DNA from: Maribacter sp.
Lineage (GTDB): Bacteria; Bacteroidota; Bacteroidia; Flavobacteriales; Flavobacteriaceae
DNA: 46,021 bases
NCBI GenBank assembly: GCA_022865355.1
Contig: JALHST010000029.1
Span: 1 to 46,021, forward strand
Reading direction: 5' to 3'
Shown here: positions 1-18,009 of the stretch, piece by piece
Layout: every line of letters begins with the position of its first letter
How positions within the stretch are numbered: position 1 is the first letter of the stretch
Translations under genes and position numbers: made by a program
Notes under the pieces: model-generated
Seen by the model: only the letters and a program-made list of their open reading frames with translations
The model's database searches: none
Told to the model about the DNA's origin: nothing

Positions 1-567
1 GACTTCCCGAATCATGTTCTCCGTTCCTCCCGGCCCATCTCCTTTTTTGCCATCCCAGAGCGCAATAAAGGTCAGGTTTCGGTCGCCCATCGTCAGCGCG
101 GTATTCAAGATCCACAGGTTGTTCTGCTCCCAAAAATCAGCAGACGAATCTTTGGACTGTTGCCCATTAGACAATTCGTTCGATTCTGAAAATAGTCGAA
201 AAGTAATGTTGGGATCCGCCTCCAGGGCTTTAAAACGCGCTATCCAGCTTTTGCCCCCGGGGCGTACTGATTTGGCTATGAACTTCTCACGGGGCAATGC
301 CAAAAGTACCTGGGTCGGTATACCCAGCTCCTGGCACACTTCATGAAAGAGAATATCGCCCCCACAAGCACCTCCGGCGACACCAATGACGCTTTGCAGT
401 TCATCCTCCGAAAAATGGTCCTTTTTAAATACCGTGTTCAATATTTTTAAAACCTTCGTTTTTATTTCTTGTTTGACACTTCCTTCCTTTTCTTTGGGGA
501 ATCTCGGTGTCTCGCGCTCGGCGGTGTCGATCATATGGCCTGAAAACAGAATAACGTAAGGTTTCAT
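1..567 (-). CDS. Partial Rossmann-like protein with GGACGGD motif (3' end outside window)
   Basis: An open frame of 189 codons starts at the ATG at 567-565 and runs without a stop off the left edge, so the C-terminus is missing. It begins MKPYVILFSGHMID, continues to a PRFP segment near residue 21, and has a glycine-rich motif GVAGGACGGDILFHE at about residues 62-76, then LLALPREKF near 88-96. The beta-strand/glycine-loop/LALP pattern resembles Rossmannoid nucleotide-binding folds of the SLOG/LOG type, but this assignment is a guess from motif shape. No signal peptide or membrane segment is visible. It lies 75 bp downstream of the patatin gene on the same strand and may be co-transcribed with it. 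That the frame is real is well supported; the function is unknown. Confidence 0.75.
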   Translation of the reverse strand, partial: MKPYVILFSGHMIDTAERETPRFPKEKEGSVKQEIKTKVLKILNTVFKKDHFSEDELQSVIGVAGGACGGDILFHEVCQELGIPTQVLLALPREKFIAKSVRPGGKSWIARFKALEADPNITFRLFSESNELSNGQQSKDSSADFWEQNNLWILNTALTMGDRNLTFIALWDGKKGDGPGGTENMIREV

Positions 568-642: not shown

Positions 643-1779
643 CTAAACAAAGGCCCCAAAATGTTCGAGGTTCACTTGGGAGATGGCCGTTTTCGCGCCG
701 ATTAATTGAAGGTCTTTGATATTTTTTGGTTTATCCATTTTACGCACTTTATCCGAGTCTAAATGTTCCAGACCAAGATCTTTCAAACCATTTTTACTTA
801 GATCGACATTATATCTTACATATAGGAAATCCCGATGGGTCTCCTTTTCCTTCGGAATCATATCGCCCAATTCCCTGTCTATAGGCGCACCAAAGGTACA
901 TCTGCCGACCGTACGACAATTGATATCCTGATCAACTTGCATGGTATACAGCAAGTTCTCCGGTAATTGCTTTAAAGTCTTCCCAATATTGCCATATACT
1001 CCCGCGGAGGTGGCGCTACCAGTGCCTATCGAAACTATCAATAGTTTGTCTTCCCCTTTTTCCCAATTGAGATGGTAAGCAGGGAGGGTCACCATGCGAT
1101 ACAATAAAAAGGCCGGATTGTTATAAGGGGTAACCCCACCATCTACGAATACAAAGGTTTTTGAAGTATCATTCGGGTCCCATTGCAAGGTTTCCGGAGG
1201 AAAATAAGCCGGTGCGGCCGTACTGGCCCGTATCAACTGGTGGAGTTTTATTTTTTGGTTGTTATCAGGCCTTTCTTTGTTATTGTATTTTGCCAAAGGA
1301 TTATTGCTAATTGGCCAAGGAGAATCGGTACTTCGGTTCATGGTCACCACGGTGAGCAAGGCTTTAAATTTGCCATTCGCTATATCCATGTCGGTTTCCG
1401 CGCCGAAGGTACTTTTAAACATGGTAAGCAATGGACCTGACTCATAGAAAGACTTCCAGATTTCCAACCGATGATCGAACATCGCCTTGCCTTTTTTGGT
1501 GTAAAAATCCAATAGTTCGTCGACCGACATGCCGATGGAAAGTCCAGCCGCGATAATCGCTCCGGTACTGGTCCCACCGAAATAATCAAAATAATCGCTC
1601 AACCGAAAATCATCGCCATTTTTGAGTCGTGATTTTAGATCCTTTTCGAGTTTGGACAGAATTTCCAGCGTGATGACCCCGCGAATGCCCCCGCCGTCAA
1701 GGGAAAGTATTTTCCGCGGCTGCTTATTTTCATAACGATCCGCCAGAGTTCCCCAAAGAGACGATTTTGCATTTTCCAT
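643..1779 (-). CDS. Patatin-like phospholipase
   Basis: This 378-residue protein has the full patatin signature: the oxyanion glycine motif DGGGIRG at residues 28-34, the nucleophile elbow GTSTG with Ser71, and the catalytic Asp213 in a DGG motif followed by NNPA. Patatins use a Ser-Asp dyad to hydrolyse acyl chains from phospholipids. No signal peptide or membrane segment is seen, so it is probably cytoplasmic. It is not fused to other domains. Patatins occur as lipid-turnover enzymes and as membrane-degrading effectors of nucleotide-signalled defence systems (CapV in CBASS). Here the neighbours are a class III cyclase upstream and a possibly nucleotide-binding protein downstream, which makes an effector role conceivable, but no CD-NTase is present. 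Enzyme class is certain; physiological role is open. Confidence 0.93.
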   Translation of the reverse strand: MENAKSSLWGTLADRYENKQPRKILSLDGGGIRGVITLEILSKLEKDLKSRLKNGDDFRLSDYFDYFGGTSTGAIIAAGLSIGMSVDELLDFYTKKGKAMFDHRLEIWKSFYESGPLLTMFKSTFGAETDMDIANGKFKALLTVVTMNRSTDSPWPISNNPLAKYNNKERPDNNQKIKLHQLIRASTAAPAYFPPETLQWDPNDTSKTFVFVDGGVTPYNNPAFLLYRMVTLPAYHLNWEKGEDKLLIVSIGTGSATSAGVYGNIGKTLKQLPENLLYTMQVDQDINCRTVGRCTFGAPIDRELGDMIPKEKETHRDFLYVRYNVDLSKNGLKDLGLEHLDSDKVRKMDKPKNIKDLQLIGAKTAISQVNLEHFGAFV

Positions 1780-2148: not shown

Positions 2149-4149
2149 TTAACTATTTATTTTGTTAGCCACCGAAGCTTTGTTTACAGGTCGATCCTTT
2201 AAGTCATGCACAAAATACATGTCCATCATCCCCTTATTTTTTACATGGATCTGGCCCCGATGCTCACAGCGGTAGGTGTCCTTTATCAGTAAATAAGTAG
2301 ATTCGGATATATTGATCATGCCCGGCTCTGATAGCGATTCCATCCGGGCGGCCACGTTCACCGTATCGCCCCAGATATCGTAGGCGAACTTTTTGGTGCC
2401 AACGACCCCTGCAACAACGGATCCCGTATTGATGCCGATACGCACATCAAAAGGCACCACAAGGGCATCCACCTTCAGCTTGGCCTCTTCCATCACTTGG
2501 GCAATTTCAAAAGCGGCCTGCACCATTTTAATAGGATGGTCATCGGTCGGAAAGGGCAATCCCCCGGCGACCATATAGGCATCGCCAATGGTCTTTATTT
2601 TTTCAAGATCATATTTCTCAATGATTGCATCGAATTTCGAAAAATAATAATCAATGGTTTTTACCAAAACTTCTGGTGATAGGTTATTAGAATAACTGGT
2701 AAAGCCTTTGAAATCGGTGAACATCACCGTAACCGATTCAAATTTTTTCGCTGCCACCTTCCCAAATTGTTTAAGTTCAAGGGCTGTTTCATCGGGAAGA
2801 ATATTCAACAACAGGTTTTCGGAGCGGTTTTTTTCTTCCTCGATGATCTTATTGGTTCTCTTGACATAACGGTATCTTTTATAGGAGCCCACCGCCACGA
2901 AAACTACCAGGACCAAGGATAAAATGGTACCATAAATGACATATTTCTGCCGCTTTGCCTGTAATTCAGCAATTTGGGCCTCTTGCTCCAACAAGCCAAT
3001 TTCATTTTGTTTTTTATCTAGATCAAAATTAAATTGTAGACCCCTGATTTTATCGTCGGTTTTAAGATTAAAGAGCGAGTCTTTTTTTGCCAGATACAGT
3101 GTTTGGTATTTAAAAGCATTACTAAAATCACCTTTTGATGCGTAGGTATTGGACAAATCCTGATAAATGTCTCTCAATTCATCATTCGCATCTATCTGTT
3201 TCGCGAGAATTTCTGCTTTGCTGTATGCCCTTAATGCCTCGGTATAATTATCTTGCTTATGAACGAGTCCTATGGCAATTAAGGCTTGAACGACTACCGA
3301 TTGTTGATTATTCGCCTGGGCTGTTCGGTATGCTTCATTTAAATAACCGATGGCTTTTTCTTTTTTCCCCATTTTGAACTCCACTACGCCCAATTTTATG
3401 AGATTATCCGCACGTAAAGTTATGTTTTGGGAACCCGCCAACGCTTCTTCATAATATTTAAGGGCATCGTCAAAGCGACCCTGTTCGAAATATACTTCAC
3501 CAACACCCATTAAATAGGACGTAATTAAATCGGAGTTACTTATACTTGATTGGTATTTTTCTATTTGATTAAAAAACTCCAACGCTTTTTCATAATCATG
3601 CATTTCTGCATAAAGGCCTCCCAAATTTAATAAGGCTTGTGCTATACTATTAGAGTCTTTTGTTTTTTCAGAAAGTCTTAAAGAACGCAAATAGTATTCT
3701 AAAGCTTTGGTATGGCTCCCTTGGTTATAATAAACGGCACCCAGATTATTCACAAGCTTTGCGATTCCCAATGTGTCATGAATAGCTTCATAGGTTTCCA
3801 AGGACTTTGTCCAATGGTCCAATACCTCCAAATAATCGCCCTGATAATACTTGGCAAGACCCAGATTTTTTTCTGCATTGGCCTTTCCTTTTAAATACCC
3901 CAATTTATTTGAAAGTTCAAGAGCTTGTTCGGAATATGTAAGGGATTCGGAAATAGCTTCATTTTTAAGTATCTCAATACTTAAATCATTGAGAGTAGTC
4001 ACCATCGCAGTATCTTTCTTCCCGGTTTGAACAAGCCTTTTTAGACTGTCGATTTGGGCGTTTTGAGCCCACAAAGAACCTGTAATCAACAAGAACAGCG
4101 CCAATATTATCAATATGTAGGTTCCCTTTTTTTGGTCGATCATAGGCAT
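2149..4149 (-). CDS. TPR-containing membrane adenylate cyclase (class III)
   Basis: The 666-residue protein has an N-terminal hydrophobic signal ending near WAQ (residue 29), a long tetratricopeptide-repeat region (about 40-370), a coiled segment, one transmembrane helix at about 399-421, and a C-terminal class III cyclase domain (about 440-645). Metal-binding Asp479 (FTDFKG) and Asp523 (GDAYM), adenine-selecting Lys519 and Asp591 (DIWGD), and transition-state Asn598 and Arg602 (NVAAR) are all present, so it should make cAMP. The TPRs would lie in the periplasm and the cyclase in the cytoplasm, a common Bacteroidota sensor layout. The start is 10 bp from the stop of the giant secreted protein, implying one transcript. 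A second ATG two codons in (4143) is an equally possible start. Confidence 0.93.
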   Translation of the reverse strand: MPMIDQKKGTYILIILALFLLITGSLWAQNAQIDSLKRLVQTGKKDTAMVTTLNDLSIEILKNEAISESLTYSEQALELSNKLGYLKGKANAEKNLGLAKYYQGDYLEVLDHWTKSLETYEAIHDTLGIAKLVNNLGAVYYNQGSHTKALEYYLRSLRLSEKTKDSNSIAQALLNLGGLYAEMHDYEKALEFFNQIEKYQSSISNSDLITSYLMGVGEVYFEQGRFDDALKYYEEALAGSQNITLRADNLIKLGVVEFKMGKKEKAIGYLNEAYRTAQANNQQSVVVQALIAIGLVHKQDNYTEALRAYSKAEILAKQIDANDELRDIYQDLSNTYASKGDFSNAFKYQTLYLAKKDSLFNLKTDDKIRGLQFNFDLDKKQNEIGLLEQEAQIAELQAKRQKYVIYGTILSLVLVVFVAVGSYKRYRYVKRTNKIIEEEKNRSENLLLNILPDETALELKQFGKVAAKKFESVTVMFTDFKGFTSYSNNLSPEVLVKTIDYYFSKFDAIIEKYDLEKIKTIGDAYMVAGGLPFPTDDHPIKMVQAAFEIAQVMEEAKLKVDALVVPFDVRIGINTGSVVAGVVGTKKFAYDIWGDTVNVAARMESLSEPGMINISESTYLLIKDTYRCEHRGQIHVKNKGMMDMYFVHDLKDRPVNKASVANKINS

Positions 4150-4159
4150 TCCATTTTTA

Positions 4160-7100
4160 CTACTCTTTTACCACACTAAATACTTGTACATCATCGTTGG
4201 CGGATAAACGGATAAAATACATTCCATTTGGATAACCGCTCATGTCTATTACATGCGTGGTGGGGGCATTGGTCCCGTTCAGCTGGTTATGAAGGTATAA
4301 AATTCCGTAGAAATCAAAGACATCCAAGGTAACCATGGCAGAAATATCCTGTTCAATATATAATATACCATCCTTCACCGGATTGGGATGCAACACATAT
4401 TTCGGAATTCCACTGGTATTGGTCGTACTGCTGGCATCACATTTGTTTGAATTGGCATTTACATTGGTAGTCGTTGACGTTTTGTGATTACTATCCATGC
4501 TCGTAAGTTCCCATTTTAAGGTATTTCCATCAAAACGAATTTCAAAGGTATGCTCGCCCGGTAAAAATTTGATGGGAAGTTCCCCACTATATTGTGCGGG
4601 TCCCGATAGTAGATTTTCCGGCCCTTCCAATATGTAAATGGCCTCATCATTCGGATTCTCGTACCGGAAATGGGCAATATAAAACAGGCCGTCCGGGTCA
4701 CCGGGATTTTCTTCTACGCAATCAGTATAGGTGCGTATTTTACGCATGTTATTGCTTGAGTTAATGTAGACGGTCCCGATGCGTAGGTATTCAATCATAT
4801 AATTAAAATTGGCCGGCTCTATGATCTTTATGAAATAGACCCCTGCATCTCCCATATACGGATTACCCGCCACATCTTCGATACGGTATTGGATACCTCC
4901 GGAGAAAACGTTTTGTTGCGTTTCGTTATTTACATATCCCGTAATGGCCGTTGTTATCATGGAGGCGTCGATCGTCGTACCTTCATCGACTACCAAATCC
5001 TGTATAGTCGCATAAAGGCTTTCCTTAAGAATGGTGAGTTGACCATGGGATATCCCATAATCTATTGTATAATTTTGAGGCACCGACTCAGTTTCCGTAA
5101 TCCATATTTCATAATCGCCTACATTCAAATTATCATCTTGGCCGATTTCGTTCCCTGAGGCATCCACAAAATAGTAGGGGATACCATTAGGGAAAACAGT
5201 AATTGGGTCATCATCATAAGCAAAAGGACCAAACCTGGGATCTATGACAGGTGTTTCACCATACTTGATTGTTGGTGCCACTGGATTAAACGTTAAAGGT
5301 GCTTTTGAAATTGTTAAAGTTCCGCGGTTGACATCCGGTACAATTATATAATTGTCATTGAGATCATCCGTAATAAAGATTCCGTACTCACCAACATCAA
5401 TTTTTTGTCCTATGGTGTATGTAGTATCATCTCCATCTACTTTCTTAAAATAATAGGGTATTTTGCCATCGGTGCCTTCTAAAACAGCCGCATCTTCACC
5501 TTCGGCAAAACCAGTGATTCCTGCTGGGTCTATATTTGGAATCTCACCATACTTGAATTCTACGGCCTCAGGATTAAAAGATAAAGTAGCTTCATTAACA
5601 GTCAAGGTACCTCGGTTTGCATCCGGCACAATGAGATAATTATCCATTGGATCATCGGTAATAAATATATCATAAACACCAACATCCATTTTTTCACCTA
5701 TGACATATGTTGTGCCATCGCCGTCTACTTTCTTGAAATAGTAAGGTATATTACCATCATTTCCTTCTAAAACTGTAGCATCTTCGCCCTCGGCAAAACC
5801 GGTGATTCCAGCTGGGTCTATGACCGGTATGTCACCATATGCGATCTGGATGGCAACTGGATTAAATGCTAAAGTAGCTGGCTCAATAGTTAAGGTACCA
5901 TATGTATCGTTAATGGTATTAGATATTAAATAATTTTCGGGATTTCTAATTTTGATTGCATAATCACCAATTTCTTTTAGGTCGTCTATTTCCAGTTCTG
6001 TGCCATCTCCTCCCTCTTTAATGAAATAATACGGTATTCCACCATCCTCTTCCGGGAAAACAGTTGCTAACGATTCTTGGTATTCCCCTTCAAAAGCCCA
6101 TCCATCAAAACTAGATATCAAGTTATTTTTTGTGATATGCGTGCCGTAGGGTATTATCAAGTTATTAATACTTGCAGTTAGATCTTTTGGCAATACGGTC
6201 AAACTTCCTTGCGCATAGGTTATGTTAAAATTAGCCGACATGGCATTTAGAAAGGCTCCAGGATATATAACGTGGCCTTCAGTGCCGGGGGTAACATCGA
6301 GGCCTGTAATCATATTCAATGAATACATGTCCGAAATCGCTCTATCAGGATCAGAACCGTCATCTGGCGGTGCATCTTCGGCGTCAATGATCGAGAATAC
6401 CGACTCATAGCCACTATAGGGTCTGTCCGGGTCATCTGTGCTCACCACGGCCTGAAATTTACTGACTACTGCCTGAAATTTATTTTCTATGCCAAGGTCA
6501 ACCACCCCGGAGAATAAATCTTCGGCGCTTACTACCGCTTGAAATTTACTTACTACCGCCTGAAATTTATTGGTAGTCCCATTGTCATAGGCCAAACGGG
6601 CGTCTATATAATTGGTGAAATTCTCATTATCCAAATTAATCGTGTTCATGCCACTTACAACCGCCTGAAATTTATTTTGAATCGTACGTTCTGAGGCGCT
6701 CCAGCTTCCTCCATTTAAAAGATCCAATAAATCATATCCACTCACTACCGCCTGAAATTTACTGACAACTGCCTGAAATTTATTGGGTAAGCCATCTTTA
6801 TAGTCGCTTTGGTGGGTCGCGTCTATTAGACTGTAAAAACCCGTCTCCCTAGAATTATCGCTTATTCCGGTAGCATCATAATCATACCTCAATGTATTTA
6901 AGATGGCGTCACCATACGTAACAGTAAGGGGTTCAGGTGTTATTGTCAGATCTTTTTTGTTAATGGTTAAATAACCTACTTTACCTTCATCAGGGTCGAT
7001 ATACCCTGAAATAAAATTTATTTGGTATAAATCGTGATCATAGTCCTGGTCTCCGAAAGAAGGGGTGATTACATAATCAAATACAATGGGATAACCACCT

Positions 7101-9835
7101 TCTGCAAGTTTTTCGTCCAACGCCGTGTTGTTTAAAACTACTGGTGGAAGACCTTCTAACGATTCAAAGGTCACACCTTCGGGAAGTCCTTCCACGGTAA
7201 AAGGCGGTACATATTCCGGGTTATTGGCATCGGCCCTATAGTAAGAAGTTATGTCCTGCCCATATTCAAATTGGGCATTGTTGGCAAGAATATTCAGGGC
7301 TAATTTGCCTTCATCAAAGAAATATGCCGGGTCAGAGGCACCTCCATCTGCACCTCCAGGGGTTATACTGTTTGTAACAACGAACAAAGCGGGATTGCCG
7401 GAGAAAGTAGGAACAGTGGCAGTAATGACAGACTGACCATCCTCTGTTATAATTTGAACATCCTCCAACGGCTGATCATTAAACAAAATTTCAAAATCAT
7501 CAACATTTTCTGGAAAGAACTCGCCAATGATGGTCACGGTGAAAGGTTCCGCACTCGGTGTTTTTCCATCTTCGACCCTAAGTTCGGTTATTTTGGCCGT
7601 TTGTGATGCAATCGTTTTAAAGGCGGCTAGTGTATTTAAAAATCCAGCGGCCGACCCGTCGGCAGCGGCGAATGGGGTAGCTGAACTTTTAAATAACTGC
7701 AATGCTTGATCCGCCGAGTAGGTTGTGGATCCAGATCCATCCGGAAACCAAGAAGGTGCGGCAGACATTAATAATGCCATGGCACCCGCCAAATGCGGTG
7801 CCGATGCCGAAGTGCCATAAAAGTTCAAAACACCATCTTTATCACACGTGTCACATTGAGCATTTTGGCCTATAGTAGTAGACGCCGTATTACCGCCGTC
7901 TGGCGCGTAAAGATCAATGGCCAGCGTAGTGCCATCTTTCAATAAGCCACCATAGGAAGAGAAAGTTTCGGCTACCGGACTACTGGCCTTACGATAATCT
8001 ACCGCCCCTGTGGTAATCGAAGCTGGATTCATGGCATGACCACTCACCGTGGGGGCACCGTTACCAAAATATTCTGGAAATTTCAGTCCATCGGGCGTCC
8101 CATCTGCCGCCGCGGTATGAAATGCAATATATCGAAAAGGCACATTGGTAGGGCCGTTAGCACTGGTAATTAGAATATTGGCATTTCCTGAACCTGTAGC
8201 CCGAAAAACGATAATCTCTGTGGGGTCCCCGGCGATATTTACACGATTGCTACCTACCAGCAATCTGCCAAGATCATCTACTATGTAAATGTCCAGATCT
8301 TCAAGGGCGCCTGCACTGCCTTGTGAAGCCAACAATTCTTTCCATTGTAAGGCAATTAAATAGGTGCCAGGGTCTACATGTATTTTTTGCAAGTAATCCC
8401 CCGTACCATCAAATAGATGCGCCCTGGTTGAGCTTCCAGTAGGAATAAAATTTGTAACCGGTACATTTGAAGAGGCAGCGAAAGTACTTTGATAACTTTT
8501 ATTCGCTAAATTTCCCGCGGAAGTGACATGAAATTTTCCAGGTTGGCTCACAAAGGATTGTATAGCGGTAGCTATTCGACCGGTTCCAAGAAAAAAGGGC
8601 TCGGTTATAAAAGTGATATCGTCTACGACCATATCACAGCTTAGGGCCAAGGCATTGAAACCCTCTTCAAATTGGCGAGGGGAGGCTGTTGCGGTATGAA
8701 ATTGCAATGCCGCACCTGGCGCTACATCATGCAGTATCTGCATCATGGCCCTACCTTCATCTGAAGATTTAGATGCATTATCCTTCACAATAATTGGATC
8801 GGCAGGCAATTCCCCATTGGCAATATCAAGAGCGGCAAACGATTCCCCAGGGAGGGCCATGTCATAGCTGTCGGACAGTACTCCTATGGTAATGCCTTTA
8901 CCATCGACCGGCACAATTGCCCCATCGGCATCAACCGTACGAAATGACGCTCGAACTATATTTGAAGTCTGGGCGGCATCTCCTTGTGTGATAACGCCAC
9001 CTGAATTATTGGTGGCAGGATATACCGGCCTTGCAAAGTTTATATATGGTTTAGTCAGGTTATTAATAGAGTAATCGTTCAAAAGACATAGGTCTGGCTT
9101 CGTAAAATACACATCAATGACCGCAAATCGACTCAATTGATCAACTAAACTTTCTGAGGAACCAGCTTCATATAATAAAAAATCAGAGCTTGGTATGTTA
9201 AATGGAGGACCTTGCAATAAAGTGATTAAATTCGCCAATTGCCCATTATTCGGTACAATTTCAATGAGTACCTTGTCGTCTTTTAATTGGAAAATGAGAG
9301 GTGAAGGGATCAGCGAGACTGGGTTATCGCATAAGGAGCTGAGTTCTTGCCCTATAATTTCATACGATTTTCCATTATTTAGTACAGGTTCGATAAACCC
9401 GTCATTGACTGAGCATTTAGAAGAATTTGCATTCGCAATAACGGTATGCGTATTGCCATTACTGATGATGGTCCATTCAACATAATCGCCAGGGCCAAAT
9501 TCTTTGGTGAAAACTTTGTTAACCGAGCCAGATTTAAATTTATTCAATCCTTTCGCTACCCGCTTGCCATTATTCGATTTAATGATACTACCATTTTCAT
9601 CAATGACCACCTCTTTATTTGTAGGGTTTACATAGCCGAAACTTGCCTGAAGTAATCCATTCGAAAGATCTTTTACACAATAAACAACCGGGATGATATC
9701 CTTGTTTTTTTGAGCATGACCAACAAATACAAAGAAAAGGCAAAATAGCAGTGGTAACTGCCATCTGAAATTGGCATAATTTTTATTGCGATGGGTTCTC
9801 TGGGCATCAATACTAACAAAATACCTTTTTTTCAT
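4160..9835 (-). CDS. Giant T9SS-secreted subtilisin-like protein with MBG domains and KFQAVVS repeats
   Basis: I chose the ATG at 9835 (MKKRYF) over the in-frame ATG at 9877, because it leaves a recognisable signal peptide ending GHAQ near residue 42 of a 1891-residue protein. A subtilisin-like domain spans about 300-720: Asp322 (LSDSYD) and Ser676 (GTSASAPH) are present, but the expected His is replaced by Glu360 in DEGRAMM. An IPT/Ig-like segment follows, then about five to six MBG-type Ig-like repeats marked by xxYGxxP/YGD motifs. Within one of them sit seven copies of KFQAVVS (residues about 1019-1132). The last roughly 75 residues (HPNPVKDG through FSVVKE) form a T9SS type A sorting domain. 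It should therefore be exported by Sec and T9SS and anchored or released outside. Substrate and protease activity are unknown. Confidence 0.92.
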   Translation of the reverse strand: MKKRYFVSIDAQRTHRNKNYANFRWQLPLLFCLFFVFVGHAQKNKDIIPVVYCVKDLSNGLLQASFGYVNPTNKEVVIDENGSIIKSNNGKRVAKGLNKFKSGSVNKVFTKEFGPGDYVEWTIISNGNTHTVIANANSSKCSVNDGFIEPVLNNGKSYEIIGQELSSLCDNPVSLIPSPLIFQLKDDKVLIEIVPNNGQLANLITLLQGPPFNIPSSDFLLYEAGSSESLVDQLSRFAVIDVYFTKPDLCLLNDYSINNLTKPYINFARPVYPATNNSGGVITQGDAAQTSNIVRASFRTVDADGAIVPVDGKGITIGVLSDSYDMALPGESFAALDIANGELPADPIIVKDNASKSSDEGRAMMQILHDVAPGAALQFHTATASPRQFEEGFNALALSCDMVVDDITFITEPFFLGTGRIATAIQSFVSQPGKFHVTSAGNLANKSYQSTFAASSNVPVTNFIPTGSSTRAHLFDGTGDYLQKIHVDPGTYLIALQWKELLASQGSAGALEDLDIYIVDDLGRLLVGSNRVNIAGDPTEIIVFRATGSGNANILITSANGPTNVPFRYIAFHTAAADGTPDGLKFPEYFGNGAPTVSGHAMNPASITTGAVDYRKASSPVAETFSSYGGLLKDGTTLAIDLYAPDGGNTASTTIGQNAQCDTCDKDGVLNFYGTSASAPHLAGAMALLMSAAPSWFPDGSGSTTYSADQALQLFKSSATPFAAADGSAAGFLNTLAAFKTIASQTAKITELRVEDGKTPSAEPFTVTIIGEFFPENVDDFEILFNDQPLEDVQIITEDGQSVITATVPTFSGNPALFVVTNSITPGGADGGASDPAYFFDEGKLALNILANNAQFEYGQDITSYYRADANNPEYVPPFTVEGLPEGVTFESLEGLPPVVLNNTALDEKLAEGGYPIVFDYVITPSFGDQDYDHDLYQINFISGYIDPDEGKVGYLTINKKDLTITPEPLTVTYGDAILNTLRYDYDATGISDNSRETGFYSLIDATHQSDYKDGLPNKFQAVVSKFQAVVSGYDLLDLLNGGSWSASERTIQNKFQAVVSGMNTINLDNENFTNYIDARLAYDNGTTNKFQAVVSKFQAVVSAEDLFSGVVDLGIENKFQAVVSKFQAVVSTDDPDRPYSGYESVFSIIDAEDAPPDDGSDPDRAISDMYSLNMITGLDVTPGTEGHVIYPGAFLNAMSANFNITYAQGSLTVLPKDLTASINNLIIPYGTHITKNNLISSFDGWAFEGEYQESLATVFPEEDGGIPYYFIKEGGDGTELEIDDLKEIGDYAIKIRNPENYLISNTINDTYGTLTIEPATLAFNPVAIQIAYGDIPVIDPAGITGFAEGEDATVLEGNDGNIPYYFKKVDGDGTTYVIGEKMDVGVYDIFITDDPMDNYLIVPDANRGTLTVNEATLSFNPEAVEFKYGEIPNIDPAGITGFAEGEDAAVLEGTDGKIPYYFKKVDGDDTTYTIGQKIDVGEYGIFITDDLNDNYIIVPDVNRGTLTISKAPLTFNPVAPTIKYGETPVIDPRFGPFAYDDDPITVFPNGIPYYFVDASGNEIGQDDNLNVGDYEIWITETESVPQNYTIDYGISHGQLTILKESLYATIQDLVVDEGTTIDASMITTAITGYVNNETQQNVFSGGIQYRIEDVAGNPYMGDAGVYFIKIIEPANFNYMIEYLRIGTVYINSSNNMRKIRTYTDCVEENPGDPDGLFYIAHFRYENPNDEAIYILEGPENLLSGPAQYSGELPIKFLPGEHTFEIRFDGNTLKWELTSMDSNHKTSTTTNVNANSNKCDASSTTNTSGIPKYVLHPNPVKDGILYIEQDISAMVTLDVFDFYGILYLHNQLNGTNAPTTHVIDMSGYPNGMYFIRLSANDDVQVFSVVKE
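6440..6781 (-). repeat. Seven-copy 21-bp protein-coding repeat (KFQAVVS)
   Basis: Seven 21-bp units encode the identical heptapeptide KFQAVVS at 6440-6460, 6461-6481, 6527-6547, 6548-6568, 6653-6673, 6740-6760 and 6761-6781. Six form three tandem pairs and one (6653-6673) stands alone. The units differ at synonymous positions (for example GTGGTGAGC, GTAGTCAGT and GTAGTAAGT for VVS) while the peptide never changes, which points to selection on the peptide rather than recent DNA duplication. Spacers of 15-28 residues are unrelated to each other. In four cases an Asn precedes the first heptad. Confidence 0.95.
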
Positions 9836-11900: not shown

Positions 11901-13274
11901 TTATTTTATTTTGACTGGCAACTGTTTTTTAAGTGCATAATTACTTTTTAAAAAGTCGGGAGGCAAGGTGTTGTTCTTTAGTACGATTACGGCACCTAGG
12001 GCAGAACCCAATGCCGAATGGGTGGTATAAATCGTTACTTCCCCCAAATAAAAAGTCAAAAGGGTTATATACACTTCGTTGTCGGTAAAACCGCCATCAA
12101 TATATAGCTCGTCGATGGTTTGTTCCCCTATTGCCGATCGAATACTCCGCACTTGTAATTCGACGAGTTCTCGCAGCAATCGGTGGTAGGCATGTTTATA
12201 ATCCCCGTAGGGAAGATTGGTCGCTGAAGGCATGTTCCCACCTTCTAAATACTTCCATTTGAAGAAAGGTTGGGCATCTTTTCTGACTTCCATAAAAATA
12301 TCGGCATCGAATACCACCTGCTTATGAAATTCAAGTGGTACATTATAGTGGGTGGCCAAAACCGTGACTTGATGTACGTATTCATTTCCGAGAAATAGTC
12401 GGGACACCTTTACCGGTCGACCATCGATCTGCATATTAAAAATGCAACCGTTCCGAATATCTTCATCGGTCAACAAGCCTCTTGCAAACGGATTGATAGC
12501 TATGCTCCAGGTTCCCGTAGAAACCAGCACAAAGGGCTTTTTGACACATCGAATATAGGGCAGCAAGGCTGAGGAACTATCGTGGATACCTACGCCGACG
12601 CGGATGGTTTTCCCGTAAAAATCAATGGGGTAGGTTGTATCGGTAGGTACAATTGGCGGCAAAATGGGGTCGATATGCTCTTTGTAGACCCATTCGTGGT
12701 AATCATTTTTTTCAAAATCCCAAAAAATGGTATGGCAACCGATACTGCTATATTCGTTCACTGGAATACCGGTGAACACATAGCTCAGGTACTGGGGCAG
12801 GTGTAGGGAGTATTTTACCCTTTTATAGATTTCTGGTCTTTTGTATTTGAGCCAATACAATTGCATGCCCGAATTCAGCATGCCCAATTTAAGGGAACCG
12901 GTCGTTCTTAAAAATTCTTCCTCGGGGCCATAGGTGTCATAAAAAGTATTTAGTATCCCATCCTTTAAGGGCTTCATATAATTGTAGAGCGGGGTAAGCG
13001 TTTTTCCATTTTCGTCAATGTGTACCAAACTGGCCCCATAACATGAAAAGTTCAGCGTCTCTATTTCATATTGCTGTGAAAGAAGGATTCGTTGAAAAAC
13101 TGCCTTTATCCAGTGCACCAGGGCCTCCAAATTCTCAGTGGGAAACCCGTCTTCATCGGCTATTTCATCAAAGCTCGTGTACTCTCGGTAGACTTCATGG
13201 TAATGCGTATCAAAAAGGAAAAACTTTTTGTTCGTCTTGCCAATGTCGAATACAGCCGATACCTTGATACTCAT
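11901..13274 (-). CDS. FGGY-family carbohydrate kinase, probable rhamnulokinase
   Basis: The protein of 457 residues starts with MSIKVSAVFDIGKTNKKFF, the N-terminal ATP-binding strand of FGGY kinases. The motif GIHDSSSALLPY carries the expected catalytic Asp232, and STGTWS (phosphate loop) and the C-terminal IDGGFTDN segment are also typical. The frame stays open upstream to a TTG at 13301, but the ATG at 13274 is preferred: it is preceded by AAGGA, lies 10 bp after the isomerase stop, and gives the usual FGGY N-terminus. It would phosphorylate L-rhamnulose to L-rhamnulose 1-phosphate between the isomerase and the aldolase encoded in the same operon. It is divergent from E. coli RhaB, so a related ketose substrate cannot be excluded. 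Confidence 0.88.
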   Translation of the reverse strand: MSIKVSAVFDIGKTNKKFFLFDTHYHEVYREYTSFDEIADEDGFPTENLEALVHWIKAVFQRILLSQQYEIETLNFSCYGASLVHIDENGKTLTPLYNYMKPLKDGILNTFYDTYGPEEEFLRTTGSLKLGMLNSGMQLYWLKYKRPEIYKRVKYSLHLPQYLSYVFTGIPVNEYSSIGCHTIFWDFEKNDYHEWVYKEHIDPILPPIVPTDTTYPIDFYGKTIRVGVGIHDSSSALLPYIRCVKKPFVLVSTGTWSIAINPFARGLLTDEDIRNGCIFNMQIDGRPVKVSRLFLGNEYVHQVTVLATHYNVPLEFHKQVVFDADIFMEVRKDAQPFFKWKYLEGGNMPSATNLPYGDYKHAYHRLLRELVELQVRSIRSAIGEQTIDELYIDGGFTDNEVYITLLTFYLGEVTIYTTHSALGSALGAVIVLKNNTLPPDFLKSNYALKKQLPVKIK

Positions 13275-13284
13275 TCCTTGCTTC

Positions 13285-14565
13285 TTAAAGTCCCGATGCA
13301 ACGGTATTTTTACCTCTTTCCCGTATCAATTGTTCGCGGATCTTTAGGGAACGAAAAGTCTTGAGGGGATGTATTGTCCCACCCCGCCTTAATCGCGCCG
13401 CTTCCAAGAGGGGCCTGACATCGGTGCGAAAGGCGTCTTGCAGAATTTCTTGACAAACCACAACATCGTTGGCTTCTTGCGCCGACTTTAATTGTGATTG
13501 ATCGATCAAAAGTGCCTTGGCATAAGCTTCTTGAATGGCCTCGAGTGATTGTATCAAATCTTCCAAGGGGTCTTTTATATTATGGCTGGCATCGATCATC
13601 CACGCGGGATATGGATTTTGCGGATTGTTCAGCATGCCATACACCAGTTCGTTAAAGATCAAGAACAGGGCGTAGGGCTTGACACTGCCTACGGTACTGT
13701 CATCATCCCCATACTTGCTGTCATTGAAATGAAAACCACCCAATTTTCCTTTGAGCATCAAGGTAGAAACGATCTGTTCAATGTTCGTATTGGGCAAATG
13801 ATGCCCCAAATCTACCAAGGTATAGGCCCTATCTCCGCAGGCATTCGCCAGCATAAACGAAGTGCCCCAATCTTGGATGACCGTGCTGTAAAAATTGGGT
13901 TCATAGGGTTTGTATTCTATAAACAGTTTCCAATCGGAGGGAAGGGCAGCATAAATTTCCTTTAGACTGTCCTCGGTGTGCTGAAGCGCTGTTTGAAAAT
14001 TGCGCTGGCCTGGAAAATTGGCGCCGTCCGCCAACCAGACCGTAAGACTTTTCGAACCTAATTTTTTGCCGATGTCAACAACCTCGATATTGTGTTTCAC
14101 GGCTTGCTTTCGAACGGCTGAACGGTTTGCACTTAAAGAACCGTACTTGTAGCTTTCCTTCGCATTTTTCTGATCTTGGAAGGTATTTGAATTGACGGCG
14201 TCAAAAAGCAGTTCATGACTTGCGGCCAATTCCTTGATGGCCGTATAATCGCTTGGAACATCCCACGGAATGTGCAAGGATATGGCCCCGGCCGTCTGGG
14301 TTAAACTTTGCAAAATGCCTACATCTTCGATTTTTTGTTCCAAGGTGGCTGGCTCCCCATAAAAAGAAAACCTTCCGAAGCGGGTACCCCCGGCCCCCAA
14401 CGCCCAACTGGGAATGGCAACTTGAAAGGCGGCCAATTGATCAATGATCGCTTCCACTTCGCCTCCCGCATGCCTCAGGGTATGTGATAGGAAGTCGAAC
14501 CGTTCAGTATGGGATTTCAAATGCGGCTTGTTTTCTTCGGCTATTCGCTCTTTGGTAATTCTCAT
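13285..14565 (-). CDS. rhaI: L-rhamnose isomerase, RhaI type
   Basis: At 426 residues it matches the size of the Pseudomonas stutzeri-type L-rhamnose isomerase (about 430). It is a TIM-barrel enzyme of the xylose-isomerase-like superfamily; likely metal ligands are visible in IEYKPYEP, LVDLGHH and GGFHFNDSKYGDDD. It interconverts L-rhamnose and L-rhamnulose in the cytoplasm. It lacks the E. coli RhaA architecture. Upstream lies the DUF3500 lipoprotein gene (56 bp gap) and downstream the kinase (10 bp gap), so it is an internal gene of the rhamnose operon. Assignment is strong from family and context together. Confidence 0.92.
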   Translation of the reverse strand: MRITKERIAEENKPHLKSHTERFDFLSHTLRHAGGEVEAIIDQLAAFQVAIPSWALGAGGTRFGRFSFYGEPATLEQKIEDVGILQSLTQTAGAISLHIPWDVPSDYTAIKELAASHELLFDAVNSNTFQDQKNAKESYKYGSLSANRSAVRKQAVKHNIEVVDIGKKLGSKSLTVWLADGANFPGQRNFQTALQHTEDSLKEIYAALPSDWKLFIEYKPYEPNFYSTVIQDWGTSFMLANACGDRAYTLVDLGHHLPNTNIEQIVSTLMLKGKLGGFHFNDSKYGDDDSTVGSVKPYALFLIFNELVYGMLNNPQNPYPAWMIDASHNIKDPLEDLIQSLEAIQEAYAKALLIDQSQLKSAQEANDVVVCQEILQDAFRTDVRPLLEAARLRRGGTIHPLKTFRSLKIREQLIRERGKNTVASGL

Positions 14566-14621
14566 GGGATACTGATTTCAATGTACTGTTGTATTCAGGC
14601 TTCATTTCAAAATTCCGAGGA

Positions 14622-15833
14622 TCAATGATGATGTGTTTCCAGATGCTGACGCAATAAATCCTTGCCATAGTCATTGCCATTTGGGGTGCGTACCACCGTG
14701 TGGATATGGTTACGGCTTGGCAGGCTATGATCCACATTGGGAACCCCGACCACCCGTTGATGATCGAACTCGATCAATACCACAGGGCTATGGATGCGAT
14801 AATAAAAAACGGCTTCGGCGTCGGTTTGGCCGACCCAGGCGAACCAGGTATTATCGAGATGCGCCTCGATTTCCTCCATTTTTATCTGCCGGTGGCCTTC
14901 CCGCATATTGTCGATATATTGAGCCACCAGTGCGAGAAATGCCTTTTTATGTGATTCGGACAACATGGAAACCGGGAGACCTTCATAATTTAAGATCAGG
15001 TTGTCCTTAAAAGCTTGTGCCTTGGCATCATCCTTCAATTTGGAGGTGGATAAGGTTGCCATCTTCTGTTGTTCTTTGGGCAATGATTGCATGAATGCAA
15101 GCCCTAAGTTCTGCTCGTCCTGAAAAATGGAATTCCCTTTATATTTACCGGAGGTGGTTATTATAGGTTCCCCGCCCATAAATACCGGGGACATGACGAT
15201 TTGGTCGCCCAGTACGAAATAATTGATGACGAGGTGATGGCCGTCCAGTTGCCAACCCCAAGGTTCTGTTTCGGAGGGATTCCCCATAAAGGTAAAAAAA
15301 TACAACTCTTCATCATAGGCATCTGACCCATTATTGAGCTCCTTTAGCGTTTGGTCGGTTTTCATGATATCCTTGCTGAGCGCCAGTCCCTTGGCACTTA
15401 AGGAGGCCTGCATCAAATTGAAGGCCGCCTTTTTCTGAGCGGGATCCATCTCTTTTAATGAAAAGCCCTGTCGCGTATAAATACCATTATCCACATTACA
15501 CCAAGTACGCCATTCGTCGTCATCAATAGCGAATTTTGTACGCCCAAGTTGCTCTTCAGTCAGGGTTCCCAAAAAGTTTTCGGCGGCCTCTTGAATGGGC
15601 TTAGTGGAAACGCCGGTGGATCGAATGGGAAACAGATCCAACTCTTTTCCATTTTCTGTCCTCACCCCTTCAAACGGTTCCTGCAAAGCCTTGGCCTGCA
15701 ATTCGGCAAAAAATGCAGCGGGACCTTTGGGCGCTTCCTTTTGCTCAGTGGCCGCTTCAACTTTTTTCTGATCTGCTGACTGCTTACAGGAGATGATCAA
15801 GGATATTAGTACAAATAGAATAGACTTTTTCAT
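14622..15833 (-). CDS. DUF3500 lipoprotein
   Basis: A 403-residue protein with a lipoprotein signal (MKKSILFVLISLIISC, lipid-modified Cys16) followed by a linker rich in Lys/Glu/Ala. The rest matches what I know of DUF3500: an N-terminal helical part, then FTFMGNP and PWGWQLDGHHLVINYFV, in which the paired His are likely functional, and a C-terminal FDHQR and RNHIHTVVRTPNGNDYG segment also rich in His. It would sit in the periplasm or on the outer membrane. The biochemical role of DUF3500 is not known to me. It lies inside the rhamnose operon between the aldolase/dehydrogenase and isomerase genes, so a role in rhamnoside recognition or processing is an inference only. Confidence 0.88.
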   Translation of the reverse strand: MKKSILFVLISLIISCKQSADQKKVEAATEQKEAPKGPAAFFAELQAKALQEPFEGVRTENGKELDLFPIRSTGVSTKPIQEAAENFLGTLTEEQLGRTKFAIDDDEWRTWCNVDNGIYTRQGFSLKEMDPAQKKAAFNLMQASLSAKGLALSKDIMKTDQTLKELNNGSDAYDEELYFFTFMGNPSETEPWGWQLDGHHLVINYFVLGDQIVMSPVFMGGEPIITTSGKYKGNSIFQDEQNLGLAFMQSLPKEQQKMATLSTSKLKDDAKAQAFKDNLILNYEGLPVSMLSESHKKAFLALVAQYIDNMREGHRQIKMEEIEAHLDNTWFAWVGQTDAEAVFYYRIHSPVVLIEFDHQRVVGVPNVDHSLPSRNHIHTVVRTPNGNDYGKDLLRQHLETHHH

Positions 15834-15906
15834 TCTGAATTATTTACGGAGCATCCGGTATTGGGCCCCTTTTATGTGTTGAAGATAATGAAACCGATCG
15901 AATCCG

Positions 15907-18009
15907 CTATCGTACAAAGGCATTGGCCATACCACCATCTACGTTGATAATATTTCCTGTGGATTTGTCCAGTACGGCCACTAGTGCAAAAACGGCATTT
16001 GCGATATCCTCCGGATAGATGATTTCGTTCAGCAGATTTCGTTTGGCATAATGTGCGGGTAGCTCCGCTACGGATATGCCATAGGCTTTGGCACGTCCTT
16101 CGGCCCAGGCCCCTTCCCAGATTTTGCTACCGACGATGACCCCATCCGGATTCACCGTATTCACACGAATCTTATCGGGCCCCAGTTCGGCTGCCAATAA
16201 GCGGGCCATGTGTTGCTGTGCGGCCTTCGCTGTACCATACCCTACGTTGTTAGGCCCGGCCACCAAGCCATTTTTACTGGCAATACTGATGATATCGCCA
16301 CCCATTCCTTGCATGCGCATGATTTCCACCGCTTGTTTGGCCAGCTCGAATTGCCCTTTTACAAGCACGTTTTGTAAGATGTCCCAATCTTTTTCGGTAG
16401 TCTCTTCCAAAGGTTTTGAAATGGCAAGTCCGGCACTATGGACCACGATATCTACCCCGCCAAATTCAAGGCATGCCTTTTTATAGGCCTCTGCAATCGA
16501 TTCTGATTTGGTCACATCACAGACGGCAAAGGTCGCGGTATCGGGTTTGTAGGTGCCTATAGCCTTCTTCAACCGGTCTTCGGCGATATCCGATAATACC
16601 ACATTGGCCCCTTCGGCAGCCATTTTATCGGCTATGGCCTTGCCAATGCCACCACCAGCCCCGGTTACCAAGGCCACTTTGCGCGATAAGGGTTGTTCTT
16701 TGGGCATGCGTTGTAATTTGGCCTCTTCCAATAACCAATATTCGATATCAAAAGCTTCCTGCCGTGGGAGGGAGGTATATTCAGAAATGGCCTCGGCCCC
16801 CCGCATCACGTTGATGGCATTGATATAAAATTCGCTGGCGACCCGAGTGGTCTGCTTGTTCTTGGCAAAACTGAACATCCCAACGCCGGGATAGAGGATG
16901 ATCACTGGATTAGGATCCCGCATGGCCGGGCTATTGGGCCTTGTACAGGTTTCATAATAGGCTGCGTATTCTTGTCGGTACTTTTGAAAAGCGGGCTTTA
17001 ATTTTTCCAATATTTTAGCCGAATCCGATAGATCTTCTTTGGGATCCAATGTCAATACCAACGGTTGAATCTTGGTACGCAGGAAGTGATCGGGGCAGGA
17101 GGTACCCATCGGGGCCAGACGCTCCAAATCATTGCTATTTATATATTCCATAACCACATTGGTATCGGTGAAATGTCCGATCATGCGATTTTCCGAAGAA
17201 CAGAGTCCGCGCAACAGCGGCATCAATCGCGCCGCTTTTTCGGTGCGCTCGAATGAGGGTAAGCTTTGCACTTTTTGGCCTCCAAATACCTTCCCTTTTT
17301 CCCTGATCTTCTTTTCAATGAATTCGGAAGCCATTTCAATGACCTCCAAACTGTTCAGATAACATGCGTAGGACGAATCTCCCCAGGTAAAGAGTCCGTG
17401 ACCGCCCAAAACAATGCCGCGGATTCCCGGGTTGTCATGCAGGCATTTTTCGAGTTGCAGTCCCAGATCAAAACCAGGCCGCTGCCAAGGGACCCACCCC
17501 ATGGTATCGCCCCAGATTTCTTTAGTCACTTTTTCACTGTCCTTGGCCGCGGCGACGGCGATCAATGCATCGGGGTGGAGGTGGTCGATGTGTTTAAAAG
17601 GCAGTAGGCCATGCAATGGGGTGTCGATCGAAGGTGCCTTGCTGGCCAGATCAAAAATACAGTGGTCAAAGAGGCCCACCATACGATCTTCATCTGCCAG
17701 ACCGCCATACACATTTTTGAGATTTCTGAGTCTTTCGGTGTATAAACCCGCAATGCCCGCCTTGGTCAACGTACCGATGTCGCCCCCGGAACCTTTGATC
17801 CACATGACTTCAACCTCTTGGTCGGTCAAGGGATCTTTTTCGATGGTTTTACAACTGGTATTGCCTCCTCCGAAATTGGTAATGCGAAGATCGGCTCCTA
17901 GAATATTGGAACGATAAAGGAATAGAGCGACTTGATTGTTTTCGAAAGCAGCTGCTTTGCGGTCATCCCACAAATAGTCAACATATTTAAAAGAATTGGT
18001 CTTGATCAT
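15907..18009 (-). CDS. rhaEW: Bifunctional L-rhamnulose-1-phosphate aldolase / L-lactaldehyde dehydrogenase
   Basis: This 700-residue fusion has an N-terminal class II (Zn-dependent) aldolase domain, with HPDALIAVAA and GGHGLFTWGD holding candidate metal-binding His, and a C-terminal short-chain dehydrogenase domain from about residue 445, with the NAD-binding TGAGGGIG motif, acidic SDIAED after strand 2, and the YGTAK catalytic pair. The architecture is that of RhaEW-type enzymes, which cleave L-rhamnulose 1-phosphate to DHAP and L-lactaldehyde and oxidise the latter to L-lactate. It is the first catabolic gene after the rhamnosidase (37 bp gap). Together with the isomerase and kinase it completes the phosphorylated rhamnose pathway. 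Confidence 0.93.
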   Translation of the reverse strand: MIKTNSFKYVDYLWDDRKAAAFENNQVALFLYRSNILGADLRITNFGGGNTSCKTIEKDPLTDQEVEVMWIKGSGGDIGTLTKAGIAGLYTERLRNLKNVYGGLADEDRMVGLFDHCIFDLASKAPSIDTPLHGLLPFKHIDHLHPDALIAVAAAKDSEKVTKEIWGDTMGWVPWQRPGFDLGLQLEKCLHDNPGIRGIVLGGHGLFTWGDSSYACYLNSLEVIEMASEFIEKKIREKGKVFGGQKVQSLPSFERTEKAARLMPLLRGLCSSENRMIGHFTDTNVVMEYINSNDLERLAPMGTSCPDHFLRTKIQPLVLTLDPKEDLSDSAKILEKLKPAFQKYRQEYAAYYETCTRPNSPAMRDPNPVIILYPGVGMFSFAKNKQTTRVASEFYINAINVMRGAEAISEYTSLPRQEAFDIEYWLLEEAKLQRMPKEQPLSRKVALVTGAGGGIGKAIADKMAAEGANVVLSDIAEDRLKKAIGTYKPDTATFAVCDVTKSESIAEAYKKACLEFGGVDIVVHSAGLAISKPLEETTEKDWDILQNVLVKGQFELAKQAVEIMRMQGMGGDIISIASKNGLVAGPNNVGYGTAKAAQQHMARLLAAELGPDKIRVNTVNPDGVIVGSKIWEGAWAEGRAKAYGISVAELPAHYAKRNLLNEIIYPEDIANAVFALVAVLDKSTGNIINVDGGMANAFVR

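Follow-up and report, generated by a model that had tools for sequence, protein, structure and literature searches.

The seven KFQAVVS heptads of the giant secreted protein P0001 were probably copies of a repeated peptide ligand that is read by P0002, a TPR receptor cyclase encoded by the neighboring gene. Both genes were found in Maribacter sp. (GCA_022865355.1, contig JALHST010000029.1, positions 1 to 46,021), and this whole stretch of 46,021 nt is called the window below. We favored recognition of the ligand by a protein receptor acting in trans because the copies changed in concert, non-sister paralogues of a genome mostly shared their motif, and the TPR ectodomain changed along with the peptide. 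The features of the locus are collected in Table 1.

Table 1. Positions of the giant gene, its cyclase neighbor and their parts in the window.
Feature	Position	Strand	Basis
Patatin-like phospholipase downstream of the cyclase; candidate member, possible output enzyme	643..1779	-	Pfam, E 2e-25
P0002, TPR receptor cyclase, 666 aa	2149..4149	-	10 bases downstream of giant gene; Pfam; structure model
Class III adenylate/guanylate cyclase domain, P0002 residues 466-648	2206..2754	-	Pfam PF00211, E 7.7e-56
Candidate TPR-groove specificity residues S166, S168 and Q171 of P0002	3637..3654	-	columns splitting with the heptad's last residue; model
P0001, giant secreted protein, 1905 aa	4160..9877	-	ORF and translation, Pfam, NCBIfam
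Por secretion tail (T9SS type A sorting domain), P0001 residues 1830-1897	4187..4390	-	Pfam PF18962, E 2.3e-7; TIGR04183 above cut-off
Heptad cassette: seven KFQAVVS units and three conserved spacers, P0001 residues 1033-1146	6440..6781	-	translation, orthologue comparison
KFQAVVS units	6440-6460, 6461-6481, 6527-6547, 6548-6568, 6653-6673, 6740-6760, 6761-6781	-	
Subtilase-type (S8) match, P0001 residues 447-712	7742..8539	-	Pfam PF00082, E 1.2e-10

P0001 comprised, in order, a signal sequence (by eye), a subtilase-type domain, the heptad cassette, more repeats, and a T9SS type A tail. The PF00082 score was 41.6 bits against the Pfam cut-off of 21.8, which made this part an S8 catalytic-domain match with putative activity; its matches to solved structures were weak, the best having an E of 0.003. 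The C-terminal sorting domain scored above the curated cut-offs of PF18962 and TIGR04183, supporting the preliminary description of P0001 as a T9SS-exported protein. The same description had placed the heptads within an MBG-like repeat. This resemblance was by eye only, no MBG family matched P0001 in Pfam at E 0.01, and we rejected MBG domain membership. Elsewhere in the giant gene, at positions 5235-5899, a 288-bp unit was repeated in tandem about twice; the copies were 76% alike and coded for adjacent domain-sized repeats. Past the giant gene, the minus-strand stretch 11901-18009 had, by eye only, the appearance of an L-rhamnose use cluster.

The heptads formed three tandem pairs and one single, separated by spacers of 22, 28, and 15 residues. 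Allowing up to two mismatches, the DNA pattern AAATTTCAGGCNGTNGT gave seven matches in the window where 0.09 were expected, and none of 100 shuffles reached seven. The exact KFQAVV-coding pattern had one extra match in the whole genome, on another contig, where it overlapped a 599-aa ORF on the opposite strand; phage records gave no match to the heptads. All seven units differed in DNA, and the spacers were mutually unlike, yet each one was conserved among orthologues. Thus, the number and the paired or single arrangement of the copies, the 21-bp units with varying synonymous sites, and the unrelated spacers of 15-28 residues all stood as first described. Structure prediction of the heptad region returned no usable model (pLDDT 34).

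A genome scan for relatives gave eight loci. Eight seven-copy proteins (the window, L040-L045, and G803) shared a 2-1-2-2 layout with spacers of 21-22, 28, and 15 residues, while L046 and L047 had five copies matching the search pattern. The motif was KFQAVVS in the window and L040, KFQALVS in L041 and L042, KFQAIVN in L043, KFQAVVN in L044 and G803, KFRAVVN in L045 (six copies plus one KFQAVVN), KF[RK]AVVN in L046, and KFRAIVN in L047. The copies were therefore uniform within a protein and changed in concert between species: only one of the 392 residues in the 56 units of the eight proteins deviated from its own protein's consensus, and 5000 cross-protein shuffles never gave fewer than 34 deviations. 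The comparison of copy number among homologues, which the preliminary description had proposed, showed that orthologues retained both copy number and layout. Homologues without repeats, or with repeats of identical DNA, which that description had named as evidence against its reading, were looked for and this was not the pattern found.

In protein searches, homologues turned up in 21 of the 397 genomes examined at family level, in 20 of 395 at class level, and in 5 of 395 at order level, these sets overlapping. They were also present in 4 of 5 Aestuariibaculum genomes and in 2 of 8 and 2 of 2 genomes of two more genera, which overlap with the former sets. An order-level search for more KF types returned three genomes from another family and the already known G000 and G176. 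Many distant homologues had a different homogeneous ladder in the cassette slot, namely NGLSLV, NGLSVI (13 copies), NGFSFV, NGQALGII, FKGLAN, RFRTVLN, NAKVVT, NARAIV, NGRPLV, NGKRSV, NGSRGIA, or RGTALVN, and peptide types differed among close species. The ladder of G164 (L052) was mixed. In G358 (L060/L112) it was degenerate (FINGKGYINGVSY and similar), whereas G176, from the same genus, had a uniform NGLSVI ladder; the degenerate repeats of G358 counted against the ligand reading.

Six genomes encoded two repeat-bearing paralogues each, whose subtilase domains were non-sister (identity 49-63%; tree built without G656). The motifs of the two paralogues were identical in G747, G609, and G784, one residue apart in G440 and G663, and three apart in G662. 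They agreed at 31 of 36 positions, and among 720 pairings only the true one scored so high; for this test, the consensus motifs were entered by hand, NARVLV was chosen for the mixed G440a, and one residue of the G784 seven-mer was omitted. The test did not include the second copies G890b, G1124b, and G1134b, for which k-mer listing revealed no such ladder. A reader shared within a genome would explain why non-sister paralogues carried matching motifs. The G662 paralogues L123 (SGRVVT) and L124 (NPRVIT) were an exception to within-genome matching as well as to the S/N rule described below, and both departures counted against the ligand reading.

Uniform copies could also arise if DNA duplication or gene conversion kept them alike without selection for identity. 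In the 41 proteins with author-listed motifs that had at least four exact copies, the mean codon identity between exact copies was 0.45 versus 0.40 expected from the codons used for the same residues elsewhere in their own gene. This slight overall excess, with z > 2 in 8 of 41 proteins including that of the window, would be in line with duplication or conversion, as would the three of eight KF-type proteins that exceeded codon usage (the window, L040, and L042). However, most proteins were within codon usage and one was below it (z < -2). Orthologous KF copies were slightly more codon-identical than non-orthologous ones (0.527 versus 0.490, a value reached in none of 500 permutations), which also spoke against this explanation. 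For four of the five paralogue pairs with matching motifs, cassette codon identity at shared residues was 0.48-0.56 versus 0.43-0.46 in the subtilase region; the exception was G784, where a value of 0.71 suggested that recent copying of the cassette was likely. We therefore considered duplication or conversion highly improbable. Since synonymous sites were near random, the peptide rather than the DNA was kept uniform, and the DNA of the units was not strongly homogenised. A plain DNA repeat was likewise disfavored as a candidate: all copies differed in DNA, and codons were near random in most proteins. The earlier claim that selection acts on the peptide was supported by the codon comparison and by the copy number and layout kept among orthologues.

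The reader in question was probably P0002, in which we recognized by eye a signal sequence and a single membrane span, and which further comprised a TPR ectodomain (TPR_12, E 4.6e-39) and a class III nucleotide cyclase. Its structure model contained a block with pLDDT 77-94 over residues 51-350, and the best TPR matches found by Foldseek were peptide-bound LGN. A TPR-cyclase was linked on the same strand at 42 of 52 loci, mostly directly downstream and otherwise upstream, with an HD gene usually and a PycTM gene sometimes lying between the upstream cyclase and the giant gene. The fetched DNA gave a partial view in some cases, with only the cyclase half at L111, L112, L113, and L118 and only the TPR half at L130; L040 lacked the subtilase and cyclase parts and was not among the 52 loci. 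For the remaining ten loci, the fetched DNA did not contain a linked cyclase, and this counted against the ligand reading. Five of these were second paralogues with a linked copy in the same genome (G662b, G440b, G609a, G663b, and G784b), and G609a directly preceded the linked G609b. The others were G747a and G580, together with G747b (at a contig end), G594 (truncated by its contig), and G656 (where we saw no ladder). At L171 (G1124), the cyclase ORF that follows the giant gene was without most of the TPR part and was possibly broken or mis-assembled.

Three TPR columns split according to the last residue of the heptad, S or N, in all ten KF-type pairs. The S-type receptors (the window, L040, L041, and L042) had [STN]166, [SN]168, and Q171, whereas the N-type receptors had P, R, and S/T at these positions; columns 60 and 163 showed a less strict split. 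In a partition test, the number of strict columns was equaled by 5 of 210 partitions and the tightness of the cluster by 4 of 210; this only moderate outcome, from rows that were related, counted against the ligand reading. Of 24 N-type loci beyond the KF group, 23 had R168 and all 24 had S/T171; with the six KF N-types added, the counts were 29 of 30 and 30 of 30, respectively, while P166 was not general. This count was made without L114, L115, L117, and L121 (no TPR columns), G1124a (short cyclase ORF), and G1134a (near a contig end), and L123 (SGRVVT) was counted as S-type. That S-type locus, G662a, retained R168 and T171 and was the exception. In the P0002 model, residues 166, 168, and 171 were at the start of helix 166-182, and residue 171 occupied what we take to be TPR position 2, a groove position.

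A natural comparison was provided by the near-identical Aestuariibaculum loci L042 (G802) and G803, where within the two genes only the cassette and the TPR ectodomain diverged as blocks. The cassette differed at 100 of 500 positions (20%; 16,900-17,400 of the G803 stretch) and the ectodomain at 225 of 809 (28%; 18,700-19,500), compared to 2-4% elsewhere: 69 of 3000 before the cassette, 48 of 1200 after it, and 25 of 1100 in the rest of the cyclase gene. These figures were sums over bins, and bin 18600 (7/100, at the gene junction) entered no sum. Nucleotide identity of the cassette to L044 was 0.84-0.86 for G803 versus 0.74-0.76 for G802, and amino acid identity of the TPR part to L044 and L045 was 0.70-0.73 versus 0.63-0.65. 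Thus, both the cassette and the ectodomain of G803 were nearer to the N-type relatives than those of G802. Past an anti-sigma-like gene, starting near 23.1 kb in the G803 stretch, L095/L096 also diverged strongly from L097/L098 over several genes, with protein identity down to 61%. Since other genes to the right of the locus diverged too, divergent blocks as such were not unique to the cassette and the TPR part, which weighed against the ligand reading. The pattern of G802 and G803 was repeated in G204 (RARALVN) and G377 (GFKALVN), whose cyclases were 0.94 and TPR parts 0.48 identical. On the other hand, TPR domains outpaced cyclases in same-motif pairs as well, and L041 and L043, which have different motifs, showed little TPR excess; both observations counted against the ligand reading.

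The genes around the cyclases offered candidates for an output. The patatin-like phospholipase of the window resembled defence-system effectors, matching a PADLOC effector phospholipase with an E of 3.2e-44; against the NCBIfam CBASS lipase it scored 114.7 bits, below the cut-off of 200, and it had no match in any other fetched stretch. Searches of Pfam, NCBIfam, and PADLOC gave no match for the ORF after it (1-567, minus strand, 189 aa), which extends past the edge of the window. Among the 50 fetched stretches, HD genes were present in 23 and PycTM genes (PF18967) in 11, the seeds being identified by Pfam. No PycTM gene was found beside the locus of the window, which had the patatin gene instead. 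Of the 21 family genomes that have the giant gene, 18 contained short PycTM genes, versus 3 of the 34 that lack it, a comparison uncorrected for relatedness and based on a class (<65 bits, frames of 234 aa or less) that was defined after the table was seen. Since PycTM genes of any kind occurred in 49 of 55 genomes, only the short class was associated with the giant gene. In G000, G025, G275, and G325, a short PycTM gene was near another TPR-cyclase-matching gene (only its TPR part was in the stretch for G325). One such second TPR-cyclase was L150 (G000 contig 224, 3-3246), close to a short PycTM gene from which a 153-aa ORF separated it.

According to the model that we propose, a giant T9SS-secreted subtilase-type protein would present several copies of one 6-8-residue peptide, and the TPR ectodomain of the adjacent membrane nucleotide cyclase would bind and read it, either after excision of the units or within the intact protein. 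Binding would then alter the cyclic-nucleotide output, and the cyclic nucleotide may act on HD, PycTM-type, or similar partner proteins. Change in the peptide would go along with change in the TPR groove, so that peptide types are specific to lineages and a cassette can be exchanged together with its matching ectodomain. This ligand-receptor reading, left unconsidered in the preliminary description, largely replaced the binding or assembly motif suggested there: the roles of an assembly strand, a glycan site, or a metal site found no support in the concerted change, the mostly matching paralogue motifs, and the TPR co-change. In its widest form, the model would describe a novel type of peptide signalling in Bacteroidota, where a lineage-specific, multi-copy password between cells is shown on or cut from a giant T9SS protein, a receptor cyclase that would be the bacterial equivalent of peptide-hormone receptor cyclases co-evolves with it, the effectors are Pycsar-like, and types are swapped as matched ligand and receptor blocks; we put this forward tentatively, at a little short of an even chance.

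A stronger form, not exclusive of this model, is that the subtilase domain or another protease frees the units as a pheromone or kin signal between cells. N or S preceded all 66 KF-type units, the same residue class as at the unit end, and N, S, or D preceded 139 of 153 units in 22 other proteins. Multi-copy propeptides are known in Bacillota (PMC11343458). The motif [ST]DEGR[AG]M was present in 50 of 52 subtilase domains, and close species differed in peptide type. However, the units were deep within large proteins (1458-3736 aa among the homologues bearing them), catalysis was putative, with a serine motif (searched as a regular expression) in only 45 of 52 subtilase domains, and a freed peptide would need passage through the outer membrane. 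Release was therefore a possibility that we held with clear reservation.

Recognition may also take place within a single cell. T9SS cargo passes through the periplasm, and the TPR part of P0002 was periplasmic by eye, so the cyclase could monitor its own cell's giant protein during or before export, as an envelope or export sensor with no cell-cell signal. The co-variation data would fit such recognition in cis equally, but fast change of peptide type and replacement of matched blocks would be expected of self/non-self or species-specific signalling, and a sensor of this kind, which we considered unlikely, would need a further cause for them. Still less probable was a purely structural role, in which identical beta strands stack within or between molecules and their copies match for that reason. 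Uniformity within a protein with free codons and the alternating hydrophobic pattern (by eye) would suit stacked strands, and the model of the heptad region was uninformative for or against them; matching motifs in non-sister paralogues and TPR co-divergence, however, were not predicted by stacking.

The proposed ligand and receptor had parallels among known systems. RRNPP/RRNPPA systems of Bacillota combine a propeptide of 10-100 aa with an intracellular receptor of about 250-500 aa encoded by an adjacent gene (PMC10075063), and Phr propeptides sometimes contain the pheromone in several copies per precursor (PMC11343458). The likeness to them was a short secreted peptide from an at times multi-copy precursor and a TPR receptor from an adjacent gene; here, the TPR receptor was recognized by TPR_12 and the P0002 model, and the two genes adjoined (10 bases apart in the window). 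For the RRNPP feature of a mature peptide bound in the TPR groove, what we observed was the co-variation of TPR columns. However, the ligand protein had 1905 aa, P0002 was a 666-aa protein that has both a cyclase domain and a membrane span, and the host was a member of Bacteroidota with T9SS. Because two defining features differed, we did not file the locus under RRNPP despite the like working. Pycsar, in which a PycC cyclase with a PycTM or other effector beside it is coupled to cCMP or cUMP synthesis and anti-phage defence, was resembled in the class III cyclase, although the best PADLOC PycC match (E 6e-13) may reflect the general class III fold, and in the PycTM genes of some stretches; P0002 differed in being a probable receptor, with TPRs as its ectodomain and the gene of its presumed ligand linked to it, at a locus without adjacent PycTM. 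Animal receptor guanylyl cyclases have peptide ligands, for example the sea-urchin egg peptides from multi-copy precursors. They share with our locus a multi-copy peptide precursor and a receptor cyclase, but here the ectodomain was a TPR, the system bacterial, and the ligand inside a giant protease-like protein, and no homology is claimed. Finally, P0001 was like T9SS subtilase cargo in its subtilase match and type A sorting tail and differed in its uniform short-peptide cassette and linked receptor cyclase.

In the open-access literature searched, exclusive of preprints, we found no mention of KFQAVVS and no joint mention of the MBG domain with type IX secretion, and Pycsar together with tetratricopeptide was mentioned only in one paper, on phage and satellite hotspots. 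No description of such a system was found there by title and abstract, and a large survey of TPR-based peptide quorum sensing covered only complete genomes of Firmicutes and viruses (PMC10075063). The change of the neighboring sensor together with the peptide points to a peptide signalling system that is apparently undescribed so far. Even without signalling, dispersed copies that co-change with each other and with those of non-sister paralogues, while their codons are largely free, represent an unusual selection for identity. The locus supplies a testable set consisting of the candidate ligand KFQAVVS, the candidate receptor P0002, the specificity variants KFQALVS and KFQAVVN in near-identical loci, and candidate contacts. 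If the model is true, it would open peptide signalling in a major phylum and suggest an outside trigger for Pycsar-like effectors.
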